Positions 9,097 through 23,194 of a stretch of DNA of 64,000 nucleotides are shown one piece after another. Each line of letters starts with the position of its first letter. Position 1 is the first letter of the stretch. The notes below the pieces were generated by a model. The model was not told the origin of the DNA. It worked only from the letters and a program-made list of their open reading frames with translations, and did no database searches. Origin of the DNA: Natronomonas marina (lineage in GTDB: Archaea > Halobacteriota > Halobacteria > Halobacteriales > Haloarculaceae); contig NZ_CP101154.1 in NCBI RefSeq assembly GCF_024298905.1, forward strand, positions 2,976,001-3,040,000, written 5' to 3'. The position numbers and the translations under genes were made by a program.

Positions 9097-10404
9097 TCAG
9101 AGCATCTCGCTCGGGAGCCACTCGTCATCCCGCTCGAGGACGATCTCGTTCAGGAACTCCCACTCGCCGTCGCCGGCGACGTAGGCGCGGGCAGCCATGT
9201 TCCCCCGCGGGTCCTCCTCTGTGTAGGTCCGGGGCGCCATCGTCTCCCAGCCGGCGTAGTCCTCGATCATGTAGAGGCTCTCGCGGAGGTCCGGGCCGCT
9301 CTCCGGGTCCGCGTCCCGCTCCAGCGTAATCTCGAGGATACGGCGTGCGAGATCGACCATGGCCATGCCCCGGATGTAGTCGACGACGGCGACCTCCGGG
9401 TCGGCGTTCTCGAGGTCCTCGTCGCGGTACCGCTCCCACACCGTCTGGAGGACGTCCGCGCCCGGCCCGTCGCCGAAGGCCACCTCGTCGAACGTCTTCA
9501 TCGAACTGATCCAGTAGGTGCCCTCGTAGAGGTCGGGACTCTGGGCGGCGCGTCGCTCCGTACACGCCGGGCCGACGCCGACCAGGTTCAACTCGGGGTA
9601 GACCTCGGCCCGCGAGGAGAGAACGACCGTATGCGCCGGCGCACCGGTGGTGTGGACCGCCCAGTCGACGTCGTTCGCCGCCATCCGCTCCATGAGCGAG
9701 TCCGCGCTGGCCGCCTGGAGTTCGTGGTCGACGACCTCGCCCCTCTCGAGGTCGAGTTCCTCGGCGTACTGCAGCGCCGGCGCCGACTCGACGCCCGCCG
9801 GATTCCCCGGCGGGACGATGAGGTTCACCTTCGCGCCGGGGTCCTCCTGGGCGATGAGCTCCAGGGCGGCGCGGTTCTGTGTGATGTAGTCGTTCGAGAT
9901 CGTCGCGTGGTAGGAGTTCTCGACCCCGACCGCCGGGCTCAGCGTCCCGAACGGGATGATCTGGAGTATCTCGTCGGCCGCCGTCGTCTCGGCGAGCGTG
10001 TGCCCCGACGGGCTCCCGTCGCCGAGTATCATCCCGGGCTCGTACTCGTTTTTGAACGCCTCGTAGACCTCCAGTATCTGGGTCGGATCGTAGGCCGCGT
10101 CCCTGTCGTGGTACTCGAGGTCGATGTCCAGCAGATCCTCGTCGTTTATGTACTGGATCAGGTCGCCCTCGGCCTCCGCTATCGGAATGCCGTTCTCCGA
10201 CCCCGGACCGCTCCGGTTGGTTATCGACGGGAGCGGCACTGCCGACTGGCCGTTGCCGTTACCGTTGCCATTCCCGTTGCCGTTGCCATTCCCGTTGCCG
10301 TTGCCGCCACCGTTGCCGTTGCCCGTACACCCGCTGAGGGCGAACACGCCGGTAGCGCCGGTGGTCAGCTTCAGGTACTCCCGTCTGTTGAGAACGTCCC
10401 GCAT
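9097..10404 (-). CDS. ABC transporter substrate-binding lipoprotein with Gly-Asn repeat linker
   Basis: A 435-residue periplasmic-binding-fold protein (LivK/peripla_BP_6 type) and first gene of the importer operon. The N-terminus has a twin-arginine signal (NRREYLKLTTG) and a lipobox ending in LSGC at residue 26, so it is probably exported folded by Tat and lipid-anchored. The linker is an unusually long GNGNGN repeat. The mature domain follows from about residue 55 (AVPLPSITNRSGPGSENG...). The ATG at 10404 lies about 25 bp after a TTAATATT box, so the operon mRNA is likely leaderless. Ligand specificity cannot be read from sequence; the ligase in the operon suggests a carboxylate. Confidence 0.9.
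   Translation of the reverse strand: MRDVLNRREYLKLTTGATGVFALSGCTGNGNGGGNGNGNGNGNGNGNGNGNGQSAVPLPSITNRSGPGSENGIPIAEAEGDLIQYINDEDLLDIDLEYHDRDAAYDPTQILEVYEAFKNEYEPGMILGDGSPSGHTLAETTAADEILQIIPFGTLSPAVGVENSYHATISNDYITQNRAALELIAQEDPGAKVNLIVPPGNPAGVESAPALQYAEELDLERGEVVDHELQAASADSLMERMAANDVDWAVHTTGAPAHTVVLSSRAEVYPELNLVGVGPACTERRAAQSPDLYEGTYWISSMKTFDEVAFGDGPGADVLQTVWERYRDEDLENADPEVAVVDYIRGMAMVDLARRILEITLERDADPESGPDLRESLYMIEDYAGWETMAPRTYTEEDPRGNMAARAYVAGDGEWEFLNEIVLERDDEWLPSEML
10250..10323 (-). repeat. Hexanucleotide-like repeat encoding the Gly-Asn linker
   Basis: Near-perfect tandem copies of a 6-bp unit (GGCAAC/GGGAAT on the coding strand) encode the alternating Gly-Asn linker of the binding lipoprotein. 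Such tracts can change length by slippage without breaking the frame, because the unit is two codons. Confidence 0.85.
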
Positions 10405-13604: not shown

Positions 13605-14066
13605 TTACTCGTCGGCGGCCTCGCGGGTGACCATCAGGAGCCGGTTTTCGTACTCGAGGAACGCGTCCCCGTCTTCTTTCAGGCCACGGATCTCGACCGT
13701 CACGATGCCGGTCTCCTCGTCGACGTCCTCCGTGTCGAGGACCCGGACCCGAAACCGGACCGTGTCGCCGACGAAGACCGGCCGCTCGAAGGAGACGTCG
13801 TCGATCCCGGCGTTGGCGCGGATGCCGGACGGTCGGTTCGTGAACAACAGCCCCTCCGCGAGACCGAGCAGGAAGGTCCCCTGCACCACCGGTTCGCCGA
13901 ACCGGGTCCGCTCCGCGAACTCCCGGTCGGTGTGCAGGGGGAACCAACAGCCGGTCGCGTTCGCGTAGGCGACGAGGTCGGTCTCGGTGATGGTCCGTGC
14001 GATGGACGTGTACTCCTCGCCCACCACGAGTTCGTCGTAGTAGCTCTGCCAGGGGTTGCCCGCCAT
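13605..14066 (-). CDS. MaoC-family dehydratase
   Basis: A 153-residue hotdog hydratase. It contains YYDELVVGEEY, TITETDLVAYANATG, then FPLHTDREFAE and a later PVVQGTFLLGLAEGLL, with the family-typical FERPVFVGDTVR block. It hydrates or dehydrates an acyl-CoA-like substrate. The ATG at 14066 has a GTTAATAC element at leaderless distance, so it has its own promoter although it follows the ligase gene by 96 bp. Confidence 0.87.
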   Translation of the reverse strand: MAGNPWQSYYDELVVGEEYTSIARTITETDLVAYANATGCWFPLHTDREFAERTRFGEPVVQGTFLLGLAEGLLFTNRPSGIRANAGIDDVSFERPVFVGDTVRFRVRVLDTEDVDEETGIVTVEIRGLKEDGDAFLEYENRLLMVTREAADE

Positions 14067-14162: not shown

Positions 14163-15767
14163 TCAGCCGTAGTGGTCCTCGTACTCCTCGCGGAGCTGGT
14201 GTTTCCGTATCTTGCCCGAGGCGCTCTCGGGGTATGACTCGACGAGTACGATCGATTTCGGGACCTTGTACCCGGCGAGTTCGGCCTTGCAGTGCTCGAG
14301 CAGTTCCGCCTCGCTGACGTCGTCGGTCTTCGGCGTCACGAACGCCGTGATCGCCTCGTCCCACCGTTCGTGGGGCAGCCCCACGACGGCCGCCTCGGCG
14401 ACGTCGGGGTGGGCCCGGAGCGTGTCCTCGACCTCGACGCTGGAGACGTTCTCGCCGCCGGTCTTGATGACGTCCTTCTTGCGATCGACGAACCAGAGGA
14501 CGCCGTCCTCGTCGAACCGACCGAGGTCGCCGCTGTGGAACCAGCCGTGCTCGAACGCCTCCTCGGTCCGCTCGGGTTCGCGGAAGTAGCCGTCCATCAC
14601 CTGTCCGCCCCGGTAGACGATCTCGCCGACCTCGCCGGTATCGAGGAGGTTCCCGCGTTCGTCCATGAGCGCGACCTCGGCGTTCCCGGCGGGATAGCCG
14701 ATCGAACCGAGTTTCTCCGGGTGGTTCTCCAGGTCGAGAACGGTCGTCACCGACGCGGTCTCGGTCATGCCGAACAGCTTCACGAACGGGACGTCGAAGC
14801 GCTCCTGCAGTTCCTCGCCGGACATCTGTAAGGCGTACACCGCACGCCGGAACGAACTCAGGTCGTACGCCTCGAAGTCGTCGTGGTCGGCCATCTGGCG
14901 GTACAGCGAGGCGAACAGCAGGACCATCGTGATGTCCTCGCCCTCCATCGTCTCCAGGATGGTCTCCGGGTCGAACTCCCGGAGGATGACCTGCGAGGCC
15001 CCGACGTAGAGCCCCGGCATGGTGATGTTGTGAAGCTGGGCGACGTGGAACATCGGCATCACCGCGAGCGTCCGGTCGTCGCGTCTGACCGGAATCTCGG
15101 AGACGCAGGTGAAGTACTGCGAGACGAAGTTCGAGTGCGAGTGCATCACCCCCTTCGGCCGGGAGGTGGTCCCGCTCGTGAAGAGCATCTGGACGACGTC
15201 GTCGCGGTCGATCGGTACGCCGGGGTCGCCGGGGTCCGCCTCCTCCAGTAGGTCGTGGAACCCCGCCGCCGGTGCCGGCTCGGGAACGACGGCCGGATCG
15301 ACCGACTCGCCGGGCTCGTAGCTGAAGGGGACGTACGGCACGTCCCACTCGTCGATGCGGTCGCCGACCCGTTCGAGGAGCTCCTCGTCGACGACGAGCA
15401 GCCGCGGGCTCGCCTTCTCGACGAAGAAGTCGTACTCGTGGGCCTTGAGCTCGCCGTGCAGCGGGACGTGGACGGCGCCGCTCTTTGCGGTCCCGAGCCA
15501 CGTCACCAGGAACTTGAAGGAGTTCTTGGCGAGCACGGCGACCCGGTCGCCCTGTTCGACGCCGAGATCACGGATCCCGTTGGCGAACCGGTTCGTGAGT
15601 TCGTCGACCTCGGCGAAGCTGTGGGACTCCCCGCGGAAGCGGAACGCCTCCTTCTCGGGGTGGCGCCGCGCGCTCCGACGCACCAGCGCGCCGATCGTGT
15701 CCTGGACGTGCCGGTCCTCGATGGGGGGGTCCCCCCGGAGACTTCCTGTGGTGTATGGGTCAGCCAT
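14163..15767 (-). CDS. AMP-forming acyl-CoA ligase linked to the ketone-carboxylase-like operon
   Basis: A 534-residue ANL-family ligase. Adenylation motifs are MLFTSGTTSRPKGVMHSHSNF near residue 190 and FGMTETASV. The C-terminal hinge is VDRKKDVIKTGGENVSSVEVE and the catalytic Lys is in SASGKIRKHQL. It follows the small carboxylase subunit by only 15 bp and so is the last gene of the HyuA-HyuB-small-subunit operon. In bacterial acetophenone degradation the carboxylase genes are followed by a benzoylacetate-CoA ligase; the same arrangement here suggests a 3-oxo-acid ligase (inference). Confidence 0.92.
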   Translation of the reverse strand: MADPYTTGSLRGDPPIEDRHVQDTIGALVRRSARRHPEKEAFRFRGESHSFAEVDELTNRFANGIRDLGVEQGDRVAVLAKNSFKFLVTWLGTAKSGAVHVPLHGELKAHEYDFFVEKASPRLLVVDEELLERVGDRIDEWDVPYVPFSYEPGESVDPAVVPEPAPAAGFHDLLEEADPGDPGVPIDRDDVVQMLFTSGTTSRPKGVMHSHSNFVSQYFTCVSEIPVRRDDRTLAVMPMFHVAQLHNITMPGLYVGASQVILREFDPETILETMEGEDITMVLLFASLYRQMADHDDFEAYDLSSFRRAVYALQMSGEELQERFDVPFVKLFGMTETASVTTVLDLENHPEKLGSIGYPAGNAEVALMDERGNLLDTGEVGEIVYRGGQVMDGYFREPERTEEAFEHGWFHSGDLGRFDEDGVLWFVDRKKDVIKTGGENVSSVEVEDTLRAHPDVAEAAVVGLPHERWDEAITAFVTPKTDDVSEAELLEHCKAELAGYKVPKSIVLVESYPESASGKIRKHQLREEYEDHYG

Positions 15768-15782
15768 GTCGAGTCCCGTCGA

Positions 15783-16121
15783 CTACAGCGTCTCCGGATC
15801 CAGCCGGAGGCCGTTTACGATCGGGTCGTCGCGTCGACAGGACTCGGTCGCCAGACGGGTCGCACAGCCCGGACAGAGGAACTCCCGGAACACGATGTCC
15901 TCGTCGAGCAGGATCGACGGATCGATCCACAGGTCGCCGAGGTCCTCGACGTCGCGTTCGCGCAACGCGAGGTGTTCCTTGTAGTTGCCGTCGACCGGAC
16001 CCAGGTCGTGGCCGCACTTGGCACACGCGAAGGACCCGTCCTCGACGGCGAGGTAGTCGCCGACCGTCCGGTCGTCTCCGTCCCGTACCTCCTCGATGCT
16101 CCTGGCGTCGTTCGTGCTCAT
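15783..16121 (-). CDS. Small zinc-ribbon subunit, acetone-carboxylase gamma-like
   Basis: A 112-residue protein with two CxxC pairs (CAKC at residues 33-36 and CPGC at 83-86), expected to bind one zinc. The LREFLCPGCATRLATE-like ending and its place directly after a HyuB gene match the acetone carboxylase gamma family; the size (about 12-13 kDa) is nearer to the small subunit of acetophenone carboxylase than to the larger acetone carboxylase gamma. It lies 40 bp after HyuB and 15 bp before the ligase. A GGTGA Shine-Dalgarno-like sequence precedes the ATG. Its presence argues that the HyuAB pair is a carboxylase and not a hydantoinase. Confidence 0.75.
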   Translation of the reverse strand: MSTNDARSIEEVRDGDDRTVGDYLAVEDGSFACAKCGHDLGPVDGNYKEHLALRERDVEDLGDLWIDPSILLDEDIVFREFLCPGCATRLATESCRRDDPIVNGLRLDPETL

Positions 16122-16161
16122 AGTATCACCGTGTGCTCGTGTGTCGTTGGATGCGTCATCG

Positions 16162-18165
16162 TCACTCCGTCAGCTCCTCGAAGTCGGTTCTGGCCTCGTC
16201 GAGCCGCTGTTCGCGGATCTCGGCCCGTCGCTCGCTGGTGGCCTCCGTGTCGACGTCGCCGTCGTCGGTCAGAACGACGCCGTACTCCTCGCGGGCGTAG
16301 GCCTCGGTGACGTGGCCCTCCTCGACGTCGGCCGCCACGCGGTCGGGCTCGCGGTCGAGCGGGTCGCCGTAACTGCCGGCGCCCATCCACGCCAGCTCGA
16401 CGACGTCGTTTTCGCCGAGTTCGGTGCCGAACCCCTTCGGTGGCGGGTAGTCGACGTCGCCCTCCAGTTCGTCGGCGCTCTCGGGGAGTTCGCCCCGGTC
16501 GAACCGCTCCTCGTAGTCGGCGTCGCGGACGAACTGCAGCTGCATCCGCGAGGCCGGGCCGCCGCCCATCAGTCCCAGCGTCTTCGGCTGGGTGTCGTGG
16601 GTGTAGACGCCGGGCACGAACCCGCCCTTGTGCTGGATGTAGGCGATCTCGCCGCCGGTGCCGCCCCTGCGGTAGCCGCTCCCGCCGGAGTTGGGCTGCT
16701 CCCGTCGGTAGAGGTACAGAAGCGGCCAGTCCCGCTCGTAGGTCTCGACGTTCGGGCCGATGCCCTCGGGGACGTAGGGGACGCCGTCGGCGAACTGGCC
16801 GTCCTCGTAGGGCGTCGCCGCCGAGGTGCCGACCATCTGGTCCAGCATCGGGCCGACGAAGTAGTCGCCCCGCTGGTTGGTCCCCTCGTTGATGCACATG
16901 CTCCACTGTGCGTGGGTCGTCGACAGTGCCTTCCGCCGGAGGTCCTCGTCGTCGGAGGAGAGCATCATCTTCGCTATGACCCGATTCGCCGCCGCCAGGT
17001 GCAGCATCGTGTTGTACTGCCCCGAGGGACTCAGCGCGTGCCCGTAGTCGGGACACGAGAGGGTCTGGGGCTCGGGGTCGAAGGAGACGCGCCGTGCGAC
17101 CCCGCCGACGGCGCCCATCTCGCCGGGCGTCATCAGCAGGTTCAGCATCGTCAACAGACAGCCCCGGAAGCCGGCCAGCGAGAAGTTGATCGCACCCTCG
17201 ACGTTCTCGTGGGTCCCCTTGTTGTCGAAGACGACCCGGTCGCCCTCCTTGCGGAGGCCGACCTCGACCTCGTAGACGTGGTCGTCGCCGGTCATCGCCG
17301 CCTCGTGGAACGAGCGGGCGCGCCACTCGCCATCGGGGATCGCGTCGAGTTTGTCCTCGAGGGCGTTCTCGGAGCTGTCGGACACCTCGTGCATGACCGA
17401 CTTGACCGTGTCGGCGCCGTAGCTCTCGATGAGGTCCTTCACGCGCCGCTTTGCGAGGTTGTTCCCCGCGATGGCGGCCCGCAGGTCCAGGCCGAGATGC
17501 TCCGGCTGCCGGGAGTGACGGCCGTAGTAGTCGACGATGTCGTCCCGAAGTTCGCCGTCCTCGACGATCTTGATCGGCGGGATCGGCGTCGGGTCCGAGT
17601 AGATGTCCGGCGCGTTCTGACAGAAGCTCCCCGGGACGGTGCCGCCGACGTCGTTCTGGTGCATGACGTTCGACACCCAGCAGAACAGCTCGCCGTCGTG
17701 GAACACCGGACACAGCAGCGCCACGTCCGGCTGGTGGGGCGAGCCGACCCAGGGGTCGTTCTGGAGGAACATGTCCCCGGGCTCGATGCCGGGGTCCTCC
17801 GAGCGGTTCTCGAGGATCCACTTGATGTTCCAGTCCAGCACCCCGGCGAAGTACTGCAGGTACGGCCCGTAGTAGACGAAGCCGCCGTCCTCGAGGTTGA
17901 TCGCGGTGTTGAAGTCCCGCGTCTCGAGGGTGATCTTCGAGACCGCGAGGTTCTCGATGGTCTCGCCGGCCTCGAGGTTGTTGTTCCAGAGGCTGTGGCG
18001 GACGACCTCGTAGGTGACCGGATCGACCTCGTCGACGGTGTCGGTGTGCATCGGCACGTCGCCGGGGACGTCGAGGTCACCCGGCGGGATGTAGGGCTTC
18101 TGGACGCCGTCGAACTCCGAGATGTCGAGGTCGGCCGAGACGTCGGTGCTCTCCTCAGCTGCCAT
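16162..18165 (-). CDS. HyuB-family subunit, acetone/acetophenone carboxylase-like
   Basis: A 667-residue hydantoinase-B/oxoprolinase-family protein. The metal-site region reads MFLQNDPWVGSPHQPDVALL followed by LFCWVSNVMHQNDVGG. Ordinary hydantoinases have NDPYxGGTHLPD here; the PW...HQ...LFCW form is typical of the ketone-carboxylase branch, as far as I know the family. C-terminal blocks NSGGSGYRRGGTGGEI and GFVPGVYTH are intact. The ATG at 18165 has a strong GGAGGTGA Shine-Dalgarno; a GTG at 18174 is an alternative. It overlaps the end of the HyuA gene by 11 bp, showing translational coupling. It probably forms an ATP-dependent carboxylase with HyuA and the small subunit. Confidence 0.87.
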   Translation of the reverse strand: MAAEESTDVSADLDISEFDGVQKPYIPPGDLDVPGDVPMHTDTVDEVDPVTYEVVRHSLWNNNLEAGETIENLAVSKITLETRDFNTAINLEDGGFVYYGPYLQYFAGVLDWNIKWILENRSEDPGIEPGDMFLQNDPWVGSPHQPDVALLCPVFHDGELFCWVSNVMHQNDVGGTVPGSFCQNAPDIYSDPTPIPPIKIVEDGELRDDIVDYYGRHSRQPEHLGLDLRAAIAGNNLAKRRVKDLIESYGADTVKSVMHEVSDSSENALEDKLDAIPDGEWRARSFHEAAMTGDDHVYEVEVGLRKEGDRVVFDNKGTHENVEGAINFSLAGFRGCLLTMLNLLMTPGEMGAVGGVARRVSFDPEPQTLSCPDYGHALSPSGQYNTMLHLAAANRVIAKMMLSSDDEDLRRKALSTTHAQWSMCINEGTNQRGDYFVGPMLDQMVGTSAATPYEDGQFADGVPYVPEGIGPNVETYERDWPLLYLYRREQPNSGGSGYRRGGTGGEIAYIQHKGGFVPGVYTHDTQPKTLGLMGGGPASRMQLQFVRDADYEERFDRGELPESADELEGDVDYPPPKGFGTELGENDVVELAWMGAGSYGDPLDREPDRVAADVEEGHVTEAYAREEYGVVLTDDGDVDTEATSERRAEIREQRLDEARTDFEELTE

Positions 18166-20266
18166 GGTCGTCACCTCCCGCCTCGATCACGAAGTCACGA
18201 TAGCTGTTCTGTCTGACCGTCTGGTTGCCGTTGGCGACGATCGCCGTGTTCGACATGTCTATCACTGTCGGTCCCTCGATGACGTTGCCCGGTTGGAGTT
18301 TGGTGCCGTCGTACACCTCCGTCTCGATCGTTCGTTCGGACGCCGGCCAGTAGACCTCCCGTGTCCCCTTGGCCGCGGCGTCGGGGACCTGGTCGGTCGT
18401 GGGCGCCGTCGCGCGCTCGAACGTCTCGACCTCCGCGACGGGCTCGACGCGGATGGCCTGTATCTCCGCGCGCGCCTCCGAGAACAGCGCGGCGGCGCTG
18501 TACCGCTGGCGGTACTCCGATTCGAACCGTTCGGCCAGCGCCGACGCGTCGGTGACGGGCGACGGTACCGGAATCTCGAGTTCGTGGTACTGCCCCTCGA
18601 AACGCATCAGCGCGTACCGCTCGAAGGAGACGTCCTCGGGGTCGACCCCCTCGGCGTCCAGCATCTCCCGGCCCTGCGATTCGAGTTCTTGGTACTCCGA
18701 CTCGACGTCCTCGGCGTCGAACGGCTGGAGGTGGACCACCTGCTGTTCGACCTCCTGTCTAATGTCGGTGTTGAGAATCCCGTAGGCCGACCAGACCGGC
18801 GAGATCTCGCCGGGGACGAGGATCGACTCGACGTCGAGTTTGTCGGCGTACCCCGAGGCGTGGATCGGCCCGGCGCCCCCGTAGCTTATGACGTTGAAGT
18901 CCCGCGGGTCGTACCCGCGGCCGATGACGTTCTTCTCGATGAGGTTCGCCATCTTGGTGTTCGTCACCTCGAAGACCCCGGCGGCGAACTGTGTCGGGGA
19001 CTGGCCGAGCCGTTCGCCGGCGCGTTCAAGCGCCGCCTCCGCCAGCTCGGTCGACGGCGAGAGCTCGCCGGTCCCGAACGTCGTCTCCGGGTCGATGAAC
19101 CCCAGATAGAGGTCCGCGTCGGTGACGGTCGGCTGGTCGCCGCCCCGGTCGTAGCAGGCGGGCCCGGGGTCGGCGCCGGCGCTCTGTGGGCCGACGCTGA
19201 TCTGGCCCTCCGAGACCGTCGCCAGCGACCCGCCCCCGGCACCGATGGACTCGACGTCCAGCTTCGGGACGTTGTACACGTACTTCTGGACCATCGTCTC
19301 CTCCTGGACGAGCGGTCGTCGATCCTGAAGGACACCCAGCTCGAAGGAGGTCCCGCCCATGTCGGTCGCCAGGACGTTTGCCATCTCGTCGGTCTCCTCG
19401 GCGAGGCGCTCACAGCCCTTCAGCCCGCCGACCGGGCCAGACCCGATGAGCATGATGGGCAGGTCCATCGCCTGCGACGGCGTGTAACAGCCGCCGTTTG
19501 CCCCCATCAGGAGGAAGGTCCCCGTGAAGTCGTACTCCTCGCGCAGCGTCGTCTCGAGGTTCTCGAGGTACTCCTCGATCAGGGGGCCGACCTTGGCGTT
19601 GACCGCCGTCGCCACGGTCCGCTCGTACTCGCCGAGCGTGGGGGATACCTCGTGTGAGAGGCTGAGGTAGACGTCCTCGTCGAGCGTCTCCTCGATAATT
19701 TCGGCGGCCCGGCGTTCGTGGTCGGGATGCTTGAACGACCAGAGGAACGACACCGCCAGCCCGTCGACGTCCTCGGCCGCGAGGTCGTCGAGGGCGGCCT
19801 CCAGTTGCGCCTCGTTCAGGTCGACGACCACGTCCCCCTCGTCGTCGACGCGCTCGGTCACGCCCGCCGTCCGCTCGCGGGGGACGAGCGGGTCCGGCCG
19901 CCGCATCTCAGCGACGCGGAGCGTGTTCTCCGGCGGCTCGCCGGTCACTCGCCCCCGGCCGCGCATCATCGTGAGCGTGTCCTCGTGGCCCTGCGTCGTG
20001 AGCAGGCCGATGTCGGCGCTCTCGTCTTCGACGATGGCGTTGGTCGCCACCGTCGTCCCGTGCGTGATCCGCGTCAGCTGCTCCATCAGATCGTCGATGT
20101 CCTCGCCGGCCTTCCGTCCGGCCCGATCGATGCTCTCGAAGAACCCCGAGCGGAAGTCGTCCTCCGGCGTACTCCGGGCCTTGCTCGTGTAGACGTTGCC
20201 CTCGGCGTCCATCAACGTACAGTCCGTGAACGTCCCGCCGATGTCGACCGATCCGACGTACTTCAT
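18155..20266 (-). CDS. HyuA-family subunit, acetone/acetophenone carboxylase-like
   Basis: A 703-residue hydantoinase-A/oxoprolinase-family ATPase. Phosphate-binding motifs of the actin/ASKHA-like fold are seen at the start (VDIGGTFTDCTLMD), in ATDMGGTSFELGVL and in GAGGGSLATV. In ketone carboxylases this subunit activates bicarbonate and the ketone enol with ATP. The ATG at 20266 has GGAG 8 bp upstream. An upstream in-frame ATG at 20320 would add 18 residues without family similarity, yet it lies near the predicted transcription start, so it cannot be fully excluded. First gene of the four-gene operon. Confidence 0.88.
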   Translation of the reverse strand: MKYVGSVDIGGTFTDCTLMDAEGNVYTSKARSTPEDDFRSGFFESIDRAGRKAGEDIDDLMEQLTRITHGTTVATNAIVEDESADIGLLTTQGHEDTLTMMRGRGRVTGEPPENTLRVAEMRRPDPLVPRERTAGVTERVDDEGDVVVDLNEAQLEAALDDLAAEDVDGLAVSFLWSFKHPDHERRAAEIIEETLDEDVYLSLSHEVSPTLGEYERTVATAVNAKVGPLIEEYLENLETTLREEYDFTGTFLLMGANGGCYTPSQAMDLPIMLIGSGPVGGLKGCERLAEETDEMANVLATDMGGTSFELGVLQDRRPLVQEETMVQKYVYNVPKLDVESIGAGGGSLATVSEGQISVGPQSAGADPGPACYDRGGDQPTVTDADLYLGFIDPETTFGTGELSPSTELAEAALERAGERLGQSPTQFAAGVFEVTNTKMANLIEKNVIGRGYDPRDFNVISYGGAGPIHASGYADKLDVESILVPGEISPVWSAYGILNTDIRQEVEQQVVHLQPFDAEDVESEYQELESQGREMLDAEGVDPEDVSFERYALMRFEGQYHELEIPVPSPVTDASALAERFESEYRQRYSAAALFSEARAEIQAIRVEPVAEVETFERATAPTTDQVPDAAAKGTREVYWPASERTIETEVYDGTKLQPGNVIEGPTVIDMSNTAIVANGNQTVRQNSYRDFVIEAGGDDHGS

Positions 20267-20353
20267 GGGTGGGCTCCGTGCTGTCTGGTAGCTCGTGTCA
20301 TTTTTCCTCCCGTCCGACATCGACTCGGCGGCCGCTAATAAACGTTTGCGAAG

Positions 20354-20377
20354 ATATAAATTATAGTATATTATACT
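20354..20377 (-). promoter_or_regulatory. Promoter and candidate operator of the ketone-carboxylase-like operon
   Basis: The minus strand carries a TTTATAT box at 20354-20360. Directly upstream is a perfect 13-bp palindrome, AGTATA-T-TATACT (20365-20377), in the place where BRE or a regulator would bind. The region is strongly AT-rich against a GC-rich background. Confidence 0.45.
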
Positions 20378-20437
20378 CGCGGGCGGGCGGCGCGACGGGC
20401 CCGAACGAACGGGGGTGCCGTGCGGTCGTCGCCGCGG

Positions 20438-22096
20438 TCAGAGTTCCTCTTGCCAGTCCGGGAACGCCTCGCTGCGGTCCCACCCGTGATCCGTCCGGTC
20501 CTTCTCGCGGTCGGCGAGCTTCACCCGCTGGATGCGCTCGGTCGGCGTCCGGGGGAACTCCTCGACGAACTCCACGTACCGTGGGACCTTGTACGGAGCC
20601 AGCGTCCGGCCGACCCGCAGAACGACGTCCCGTTCGGTTACGCTCTCGTCGACGCGCATCACCATGGCCTTGACCTCCTCGCCCCGTATCTCGTCGGGGA
20701 CCGGGATGATGGCCGACTCCGAGACGCCGGGGAGCTCGTCGAGGACGTTCTCGACCTCCTGTGCGGAGATGTTCTCGCCGCTCCGCCGGACCATGAACTT
20801 CTTGCGGTCGACGTAGTAGAAGTAGCCCTCCTCGTCGGTCCTGACGATGTCCCCCGAGTAGATCCGGCCGTCGCGGAGGGTTTCCTCGGTCTTCTCCGGT
20901 TGGTCCCAGTACTCGATCATCGATCCGGGGTCCGTCCGGACGAGTTCGCCCTCCTCGCCCGCTCCCAGCCGGCTGCCGTCGTCCGCCTGGGCCCACGCCT
21001 CGTGTCCGAGGTCGGGGAACATCGGCTTCCCGATGGCGCCGACCGCTATCTCCTCGAGGTCCGGGTAGTTCACGAGCAGGGTCGGACTCTCAGTCTGGGA
21101 GTAAATCTGGATCACGGTGAGGTCGAACTTCTCCTCGAAGCCCTCCCAGAGCTCGGTCGATATCGGGCCGACGGCGAGTTCGATGTCGTTTTCGGGAATC
21201 TCGTCGGCCTCGAACCGGGAATCGAGGATCTTGGGGACGCCCCCGATGAGGTTGAACGACGTCACGCCGTTCTCGGTGACCTCCTCCCAGAACTCCCCGG
21301 CGCTGAACGCGTCCGAGAGGACGTACTCCGAGCCGTGGATCGCCGACGCCAGCATCGAGTAACACTGGTTGTTGGCGTGAAACAGGGGATAGGGGTTGTA
21401 GTTGACGTCGTCGTCGTCGAACGGGACCCCGAGCATGCTCTTTGCGGCCAGGAGGAACGACTCGTTTGCGAGAACGGTCGGCTTCGGGAGCCCGGTCGTT
21501 CCCGAGGTGTAGAGGATCGAGACCGGGTCCTCCCGACCGACGCCGGGGTCGGGCGCGGCGTCGCCGACCGCCGACTCGAGGTCGGCCAGCCGATAGACAT
21601 CGACGCCCGACAGCGCCTCGATTTCCTCGAAACGGTGGTCGCCGGTCACGACCACCCGCTGTAGCGCGTCGGTCTCCGGCGCCGCCTCGAGGAGGACGTC
21701 GACCATCCCGTCGTCCGCCTCGGCGACGACCGTCTCGATCTCGGCGCTCTCGATGGCGTGGACCACCTCCCGCTTCCGGTACTGCCAGTTGATCGGCGCC
21801 TCTATCGCCCCGAGTTTCGCACACCCGAAGATCGAGACGACGAACTCCGGGCCGTTCGTGAGATACAGCCCGACGCGGTCGCCGGCAGCGACGCCGATCT
21901 CCGCGAGCGCGTTTGCGACCCTGTTCGCCCGCCGATTCATCCCCGCGAAGCTAAACGATTCGCCGGTCGGTGCGTAGGTCATGTACGGCGCCTCGCCCCA
22001 CAGATCGGCCGCGGTCCCCAGGACCTCTCCGACCGACTCGATGTCCCGCATCTCCGGTGCGAGCCGCTGTTGTACGTCCTCGTATGCCCGTGACAT
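20438..22096 (-). CDS. CaiC-like acyl-CoA synthetase
   Basis: A 552-residue ANL-family ligase. Motifs: ILYTSGTTGLPKPTVL, IYSQTESPT, and a hinge VDRKKFMVRRSGENISAQEVE whose RRxGENIS form resembles crotonobetaine/carnitine-CoA ligases; the catalytic Lys is in RIQRVKLADR. The ATG at 22096 (MSRAYEDV) is chosen; an upstream start would add 20 residues of low similarity. The gene ends 171 bp before HyuA and is in the same direction, but the promoter between them suggests separate transcription. This is the third ligase of the island, so several carboxylic acids or several pathway steps need CoA activation. Confidence 0.9.
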   Translation of the reverse strand: MSRAYEDVQQRLAPEMRDIESVGEVLGTAADLWGEAPYMTYAPTGESFSFAGMNRRANRVANALAEIGVAAGDRVGLYLTNGPEFVVSIFGCAKLGAIEAPINWQYRKREVVHAIESAEIETVVAEADDGMVDVLLEAAPETDALQRVVVTGDHRFEEIEALSGVDVYRLADLESAVGDAAPDPGVGREDPVSILYTSGTTGLPKPTVLANESFLLAAKSMLGVPFDDDDVNYNPYPLFHANNQCYSMLASAIHGSEYVLSDAFSAGEFWEEVTENGVTSFNLIGGVPKILDSRFEADEIPENDIELAVGPISTELWEGFEEKFDLTVIQIYSQTESPTLLVNYPDLEEIAVGAIGKPMFPDLGHEAWAQADDGSRLGAGEEGELVRTDPGSMIEYWDQPEKTEETLRDGRIYSGDIVRTDEEGYFYYVDRKKFMVRRSGENISAQEVENVLDELPGVSESAIIPVPDEIRGEEVKAMVMRVDESVTERDVVLRVGRTLAPYKVPRYVEFVEEFPRTPTERIQRVKLADREKDRTDHGWDRSEAFPDWQEEL

Positions 22097-22210
22097 CAGT
22101 TTCAATTGGCCATTACGCTCGGTTAACCTTTTCTCGAACACTCGGAACCCTGTCACTTCGTGCGACCGGCGAACCGGGGCGAGACCGCTCGGCGTCCCGA
22201 CGACCGGGGA

Positions 22211-23194
22211 CTACTCGTACTCCGATTGAGGCAGCGTCGTCGCGTACTCGTTCCACCCGTATCCCTTCTTGCCGTCGGACTCGTACCTCGTCGGCGTCCG
22301 CCGGATCGTCGTTACCTCCTCGGCGTACTCGAAGTCGACGGGGACGACGGTCAGCGTCGATCCGCCGAAGGAGAACGTCCGGCCGGCGTCGTCGGTGACC
22401 TCGATCTCGAAGGCCTCCTGGGTGAGGCCGTCGTCCCGGAACTCGGCGTCGACCGCGGCGCTTTCGATGTGGTTGCTCTCGCCGTCGAGGTGGAGGTACC
22501 CCTCGACCGCCGTCGCCCCGTCGCGGCGGACCTTCCAGAAGTTGACCGCGGTCTCCCGGTCGAACAGCGCACTGGTCCACTGCCAGCCGTCCGGGTCCCG
22601 CCAGTCGCGGATGCCCCACGAGTGGTCCCGCTCGCCGACGCCGTCGACCTGCACCGTCCGGTCGCCGAGCGTCACTTCGCCGGTCACGATCCCGCCCTGG
22701 TCGGAGTGACCGTGATAGAGGTTGTCGAAAAGCTCCCTGGCCTCCTCGTCGGGGTCGTAGTACTGTGGGTCGTGGAACCCCTCGAAGGTGAGGTCCATAT
22801 CGAGGGTGTGGAGCGGATGGTCCCGACTGGGGAACTCCTCGGCCGTCATCCGCAGCGCGCCCGACTCCGGTTCGAACTCGTTGATCTGCCCCAGGTGGCG
22901 GATCCGCCACTCCTCGTTGGGAGTTTCGGCCTCGTAGAGCAACCCCCCGACCTGAATGGCCTCGTTTTCGGTCGGGTGGGAGTAGTCCTTCAGGACGTAC
23001 GTCTCGTCGCCCCAGACGAACGCGACGACGGAGCCCATGTTGCCCTTGTTCATCCGATTGCCGATGCTGGAGAAGTACGCGAGGTCCGTATCGGGGTCGT
23101 AGAAGTCGAAGTAGTAGCTCTCCCGCCAGAGCGGGTCGTCGGAGAGCGGTTCGTGCCAGAACTCCTCGCTCGGGTCCGGTGACTCGTTAGCCAT
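22211..23194 (-). CDS. DUF7064/hydroxyneurosporene-synthase-like (lipocalin-type) protein
   Basis: A 327-residue protein, mostly beta-strand. The motif GVGERDHSWGIRDWRDPDGW near residue 190 and the opening FWHEPLSDDPLWRESYYFDFYD match proteins grouped with the CrtC/AttH-like lipocalin folds (DUF7064/7065). Relatives often lie in actinobacterial clusters for terpenoid, steroid or aromatic catabolism. No enzyme activity is established as far as I know. The chosen ATG (MANESPD) begins where the similarity begins; the open frame continues upstream without it. Its presence hints at a hydrophobic cyclic substrate (inference). Confidence 0.72.
   Translation of the reverse strand: MANESPDPSEEFWHEPLSDDPLWRESYYFDFYDPDTDLAYFSSIGNRMNKGNMGSVVAFVWGDETYVLKDYSHPTENEAIQVGGLLYEAETPNEEWRIRHLGQINEFEPESGALRMTAEEFPSRDHPLHTLDMDLTFEGFHDPQYYDPDEEARELFDNLYHGHSDQGGIVTGEVTLGDRTVQVDGVGERDHSWGIRDWRDPDGWQWTSALFDRETAVNFWKVRRDGATAVEGYLHLDGESNHIESAAVDAEFRDDGLTQEAFEIEVTDDAGRTFSFGGSTLTVVPVDFEYAEEVTTIRRTPTRYESDGKKGYGWNEYATTLPQSEYE

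Follow-up and report, generated by a model that had tools for sequence, protein, structure and literature searches.

What reaction is catalyzed when hydantoinase-like proteins are encoded together with a small subunit of carboxylase type? The question is raised by a minus-strand gene cluster in a stretch of 64,000 nucleotides from the haloarchaeon Natronomonas marina (contig NZ_CP101154.1, positions 2,976,001 to 3,040,000), referred to below as the window, in whose own numbering features are given unless a locus identifier precedes them. The core of this cluster encodes an ATP-binding subunit (HyuA), a metal-site subunit (HyuB), a small protein and an AMP-forming acyl-CoA ligase. Sequence comparison, together with analogy to acetone carboxylase (AC, encoded by acx genes) and acetophenone carboxylase (APC, encoded by apc genes), suggests with a probability of about 0.6 that the first three proteins constitute a biotin-independent, ATP-dependent carboxylase of some ketone or similar enolisable carbonyl compound, belonging to a third lineage of its own.

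The four genes and the overlap described in the initial annotation are present at the expected site, as read from the sequence and its open reading frames. HyuA (18155–20266, minus strand like the other three; 703 amino acids, aa) is an ASKHA-type subunit equivalent to Apc-alpha (the ApcC gene product) and to AcxA according to Pfam, motifs and tree; it contains complete Hydant_A_N, Hydantoinase_A and Hydant_A_C domains, and an in-frame ATG at 20320 is an alternative start. HyuB (16162–18165; 667 aa), with a likewise complete Hydantoinase_B domain (317.6 bits), overlaps HyuA by 11 nt, given its ATG start at 18165 (a GTG at 18174 being the alternative). A gap of 40 bp leads to the small protein (15783–16121; 112 aa) and one of 15 bp to the ligase (14163–15767; 534 aa), in which Pfam detects the AMP-binding domain (274 bits) and its C-terminal companion. 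From this spacing the core genes would be expressed as a single transcript.

The argument for carboxylation begins with the small protein, which carries four cysteines (CxxC...CPxC) invariant throughout the family alignments. It matches the acetone carboxylase gamma family PF08882 (Acetone_carb_G) with 41.5 bits (E 1.8e-10), where the curated cut-off is 21 bits, and a sequence search of the PDB returns ApcB first (5l9w_C, E 7e-4) and AcxC next. An AlphaFold2 (AF2) model built from 15 sequences, those of the window and its relatives (predicted local distance difference test, pLDDT, 82.8; predicted template modelling score, pTM, 0.72), gives significant fold matches (E<0.001) solely to the ApcB and AcxC chains 5l9w_C, 5m45_C, 5svc_C and 5svb_C/F, with E from 5e-6 to 2e-5, the next-best match having an E of 0.77. 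Judged by profile and predicted fold, the small protein is thus a true carboxylase gamma subunit, as had been proposed at the outset, and since it is, the label ‘ketone-carboxylase-like’ given to the cluster is supported. The gamma subunit is missing from hydantoinase complexes and has been found only in carboxylases (PMC5214803).

HyuA and HyuB taken singly are less telling. HyuA scores almost equally against the N-methylhydantoinase, Apc and caprolactamase families (343.8, 340.2 and 338.2 bits), so that single comparisons are not decisive. Its motifs are intact (DIGGTFTD, DMGGTSFE, GADPGP and ERVDDEG), as is the HyuB metal tetrad D84, H144, D147 and H169. The metal region of HyuB had been regarded as a pointer to carboxylation, a view that did not hold: the D-H-D-H tetrad occurs in Apc, in nearly the whole third lineage, in 10 of the 11 rows labelled gamma-less at that point and in caprolactamase (PMC8453981) and, being common to hydantoinases, is not diagnostic for carboxylation. 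Among the compared rows, E-H-D-H is exclusive to Acx, and the Acx references do not contain the PGP motif. These features also accommodate an ATP-dependent hydrolase of lactams, imides or hydantoins carrying an incidental gamma-like zinc domain, in which HyuA would activate an amide carbonyl, HyuB would hydrolyse it and the ligase would activate the resulting amino or dicarboxylic acid. Besides the near-equal HyuA scores, this reading can draw on the tetrad and the GxxPGP motif, both common to caprolactamase, and on the requirement of caprolactamase for bicarbonate (PMC8453981), which brings the carboxylase and lactamase chemistries close together. It is nevertheless judged unlikely in view of the identity and fold of the gamma subunit, the fact that characterised hydrolases are devoid of gamma (PMC5214803), and the phylogenetic results below.

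The HyuB phylogeny was inferred with care from 45 rows; its root was not inferred, so that it indicates on which side of a branch a sequence falls and not the clade to which it belongs. One branch (support 100/99) separates the gamma-less rows, caprolactamase and N-methylhydantoinase from all gamma-bearing rows. The latter fall into Acx plus Apc, two groups that include haloarchaeal rows with fused gamma, and a large group containing the window sequence. The status of doubtful rows was settled with a gamma-profile check: rows L174:5889 and L152:4011, first labelled gamma-less, have a diverged fused gamma domain, and row L126_7715, which bears the gamma-less label, is actually of the fused-gamma type and was interpreted accordingly. 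In the approximately unbiased (AU) test, joining the window group to the gamma-less hydantoinase and lactamase clade is rejected (p=7e-72), as is joining it to Apc (p=1.6e-7). A HyuA tree built by a quick method agrees. The check suggested with the initial annotation, whether the Hyu subunits would group with hydantoinases, was therefore run and such a grouping was ruled out; on these comparisons HyuA and HyuB form a third gamma-bearing lineage, apart from both Acx and Apc.

The association with gamma extends to nearly the whole of this lineage. A HyuB alignment, the gamma subunit lying outside the query, was used to scan 84,980 species genomes and yielded 80 best loci, mostly bacterial, of which 79 encode gamma, either fused to the C-terminus of HyuB (69) or as a separate gene (10); the sole exception is a locus that runs off its contig. 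Such near-universal retention also speaks against an incidental domain in a hydrolase. The nearest HyuB relatives of the window are from two haloarchaea (52–54% identity), followed by Bacillaceae (48–49%). The bacterial loci of HyuA plus HyuB–gamma fusions (Bacillus, Peribacillus, Halalkalibacter, Acidobacteria and Actinomycetota) belong to the same lineage and, in Bacillaceae, also have a downstream ligase; unlike in the window, gamma is found at the HyuB C-terminus and the ligases come from other subgroups. Two variant layouts were seen: a single HyuA gene followed by three consecutive HyuB–gamma fusion genes in two proteobacterial metagenome-assembled genomes (L138:5482-14670 and L141:4690-14500), and a separate gamma gene 5′ of HyuA and not 3′ of HyuB in Cryobacterium (L081:7495-7848) and Microbispora (L082:6913-7308). 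Within the class, PF08882 matches occur in 38 of 391 genomes, and four locus layouts are distinguished, namely the Acx type, the Apc order, the window type, whose gamma is short and encoded separately, and HyuB fused C-terminally to gamma. Five genomes of the same genus have a PF08882 match, and the loci of the four that were read are all of Acx type, so that the window cluster looks sporadic in the genus.

Is the cluster then an archaeal acetophenone carboxylase followed by a benzoylacetate–CoA ligase, as first proposed? With APC of Aromatoleum aromaticum (ApcABCDE and the ligase Bal; 5L9W) it shares the alpha, beta and gamma domains, D-H-D-H, GxxPGP, a nearby CoA ligase and similar lengths (HyuB 667 and gamma 112 aa, nearer to the 684 and 129 aa of Apc than to the about 580 aa of hydantoinase HyuB); the best PDB matches of HyuB and gamma are ApcD (the delta subunit, 5l9w_A, 155 bits) and ApcB. 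It differs in having neither an alpha′ nor an epsilon gene, in gene order, and in its separate position in both trees. Against the NCBIfam models ApcB, ApcC and ApcD, whose equivalog cut-offs are 250, 1500 and 1500 bits, the window scores 26, 355 and 177 bits. Six loci of other haloarchaea (L058–L063) are, on sequence grounds, real archaeal acetophenone-carboxylase-like sets: they group with ApcC and ApcD, are ordered alpha′, a URO-D-family protein, gamma, alpha and beta with IclR upstream, and adjoin a PaaK-like ligase gene in the loci checked. L058 attains 748, 683 and 165 bits for ApcC, ApcD and ApcB. The argument from identical gene order was weak as well, because an apc cluster begins with alpha′ and continues with gamma, alpha, beta and epsilon (PMC5214803), and because the window ligase is not orthologous to those of the nearest relatives. 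Considered as orthology, the acetophenone-carboxylase reading is refuted by the trees, the AU test and the sub-cut-off scores, and an enzyme of this specificity is exceedingly improbable here; the ‘carboxylase-like’ part of the proposal stands through gamma, while the identification with APC does not.

The cluster resembles AC of Xanthobacter autotrophicus (5SVB, 5SVC and 5M45) in another respect: the genes for ATP subunit, metal subunit and gamma follow each other as in acxABC, where the gamma gene lies downstream (PMC5214803), without alpha′, and haloarchaeal Acx loci likewise end in an AMP-forming ligase. A divergent acetone carboxylase forming acetoacetate is still very improbable. Acx has longer metal and gamma subunits (gamma 168 versus 112 aa), E where HyuB has D in the tetrad, and no PGP where HyuA has GADPGP; motifs and trees together rule out orthology. 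Moreover, a canonical AcxABC-like set already exists in the genome (L003:6287-11234, equal to C1:3820286-3825233; 723, 755–757 and 168 aa; gamma 125 bits) and groups with acetone carboxylase, the HyuB of the window being only 27% identical to its metal subunit. No paper on acetone carboxylase in haloarchaea, or on DUF7064 (see below), was found in the open-licence literature. In five haloarchaeal Acx loci (L069, L070, L072, L075 and L076), a second AcxB-like metal-subunit gene lies a few kb past the ligase.

If the window enzyme is a ketone carboxylase of a third lineage, its mechanism may be sketched by analogy with AC and APC (PMC5543143, PMC5214803). HyuA, HyuB and gamma would assemble into one complex in which HyuA phosphorylates both bicarbonate and the substrate enol; joined at the HyuB metal site, these activated species would yield a 3-oxo acid, and the four gamma cysteines would hold a structural metal. 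The adjoining ligase would turn the 3-oxo acid into its CoA thioester, which thiolases encoded nearby could cleave thiolytically. Genes for alcohol dehydrogenases and acetoacetate-decarboxylase-family proteins adjoining relatives are counted in favour of a carboxylase. Several observations weigh against it. No second HyuA-type subunit (alpha′) that could activate bicarbonate separately is encoded beside the operon; the genome's seven HyuA and seven HyuB genes occur pairwise. In its adenosine motif, GADPGP, HyuA resembles Apc and hydantoinases and not Acx, and the ligase adjoins HyuAB–gamma in a minority of relatives. Gamma, being remote from the catalytic centres (PMC5214803), is an indirect marker. 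In the HyuB tree (100/98 branch), the window lineage, Acx and Apc do not form a group that leaves the hydantoinases outside, so that phylogeny by itself does not say carboxylase; for this reason, and with no root inferred, the reading rests mainly on gamma. No biochemically tested member of the third lineage, nor any description of the lineage, was found in open-licence papers, and caution has been advised in assigning functions to distant relatives (PMC5214803, Weidenweber et al.).

The ligase was thought to be a conserved partner, which is only partly upheld. Of the 85 third-lineage loci with enough sequence for neighbours to be counted, 13 have a co-directional ligase as the next gene downstream, compared with 10 of 15 haloarchaeal Acx loci, none of six Apc-order loci and none of three gamma-less loci. 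In a ligase tree computed with FastTree, a weaker method, the Acx-adjacent ligases form one group, and the ligases adjacent to third-lineage genes can be fitted only with seven changes of label, of which starred branches force six or more. Third-lineage loci would thus, from this tree, have recruited ligases repeatedly, which is compatible with a product requiring CoA activation. The window ligase joins no starred group and not the ligases of its nearest relatives either; it may consequently act on another substrate or be a later replacement, and, lying outside every starred group, its sequence gives no hint of a substrate beyond that of an acyl-CoA ligase. Its best NCBIfam matches, PRK08316 and PRK06187, are under the cut-offs.

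The co-directional run is longer than the four genes first described. Toward 3′, a MaoC-like hydratase (13605–14066, minus strand; MaoC_dehydratas 94 bits) follows the ligase after 96 bp as the probable fifth gene of the operon. Upstream, also on the minus strand, are a second AMP-forming ligase (20438–22156; AMP-binding 192 bits), which belongs to a different ligase group and possibly has its own transcript, and a DUF7064/DUF7065 protein (22211–23185; DUF7064 82.7 bits). All three are probably part of the operon, although the core may begin at an AT-rich, TATA-like stretch read directly from the minus strand (about 20340–20380), a candidate promoter, since it precedes HyuA. Other genes of the window encode a zinc alcohol dehydrogenase, thiolase-like and ChsH2-like OB-fold proteins, an ABC transporter and, by sequence likeness, an enoyl-CoA hydratase; the substrate-binding protein of the transporter (9097–10404) has a long Gly-Asn repeat just past its N-terminus. 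Loci of relatives contain 2,3-butanediol or zinc alcohol dehydrogenases, acetoacetate-decarboxylase-family proteins, acyl-CoA dehydrogenases and branched-chain-type ABC transporters, and in Halalkalibacter (L080) a hot-dog gene (FAS1_DH region) also lies 3′ of the ligase. By gene content, the neighbourhood is the setting of a catabolic pathway for ketones or branched acids and names no substrate.

The DUF7064/DUF7065 protein may hint at a more particular substrate. Its AF2 model (pLDDT 77, pTM 0.81) is matched best by Foldseek to the 25-phosphosteroid lyase 9fzn_B (E 4.6e-16, template modelling score 0.59, 17% identity), an enzyme that in anaerobic sterol degradation acts after a kinase on a tertiary alcohol (PMC8449060, PMC11061730). 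The carboxylase could accordingly be imagined to act on a compound other than a simple ketone, for instance a steroid-like or isoprenoid intermediate of a pathway that also employs a kinase and a phospho-lyase to dehydrate tertiary alcohols. The predicted lyase-like gene lies two genes upstream; DUF7064-like genes stand beside third-lineage HyuAB–gamma in Acidobacteria, Natrinema and Mycobacterium, at times with an APH-type kinase (such kinases occur in several third-lineage loci), and an APH-family kinase gene (C1:2971171) is located about 4 kb before the window. Such a substrate is still distinctly improbable: DUF7064 occurs in only 8 of the 85 loci, a fold match at this identity fixes no reaction, and the kinase lies about 20 kb from the operon. 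The link of phospho-lyase and kinase to HyuAB–gamma, resting on a predicted fold, is a lead only. The broader conjecture combining both parts, a third type of ketone carboxylase widespread as HyuA plus HyuB–gamma fusion and its use here in an archaeal pathway whose compounds are branched or isoprenoid-like and in which dehydration of tertiary alcohols by kinase and phospho-lyase is combined with carboxylation of the resulting ketone, is speculative and rather improbable.

Elsewhere in the genome, four HyuAB pairs in addition to that of the window lie in a region of about 160 kb (C1:2838500-3000000), and this clustering suggests a catabolic island. A third gamma-bearing HyuB (L174:5889-8108, equal to C1:2901388-2903607; 740 aa) has its diverged gamma domain at the C-terminus (E 2e-11).

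In the literature found, biotin-free, ATP-driven carboxylation of ketones has been characterised only for the bacterial acetone and acetophenone carboxylases. From the sequence comparisons, the gamma domain appears to have been overlooked in many genes of the third lineage annotated as hydantoinases, and its fusion to HyuB provides a simple rule for annotation. If this lineage carboxylates ketones, many genes labelled at present as hydantoinase B or oxoprolinase would have to be renamed, and a catabolic step that fixes CO2 would be added to the haloarchaeal repertoire.

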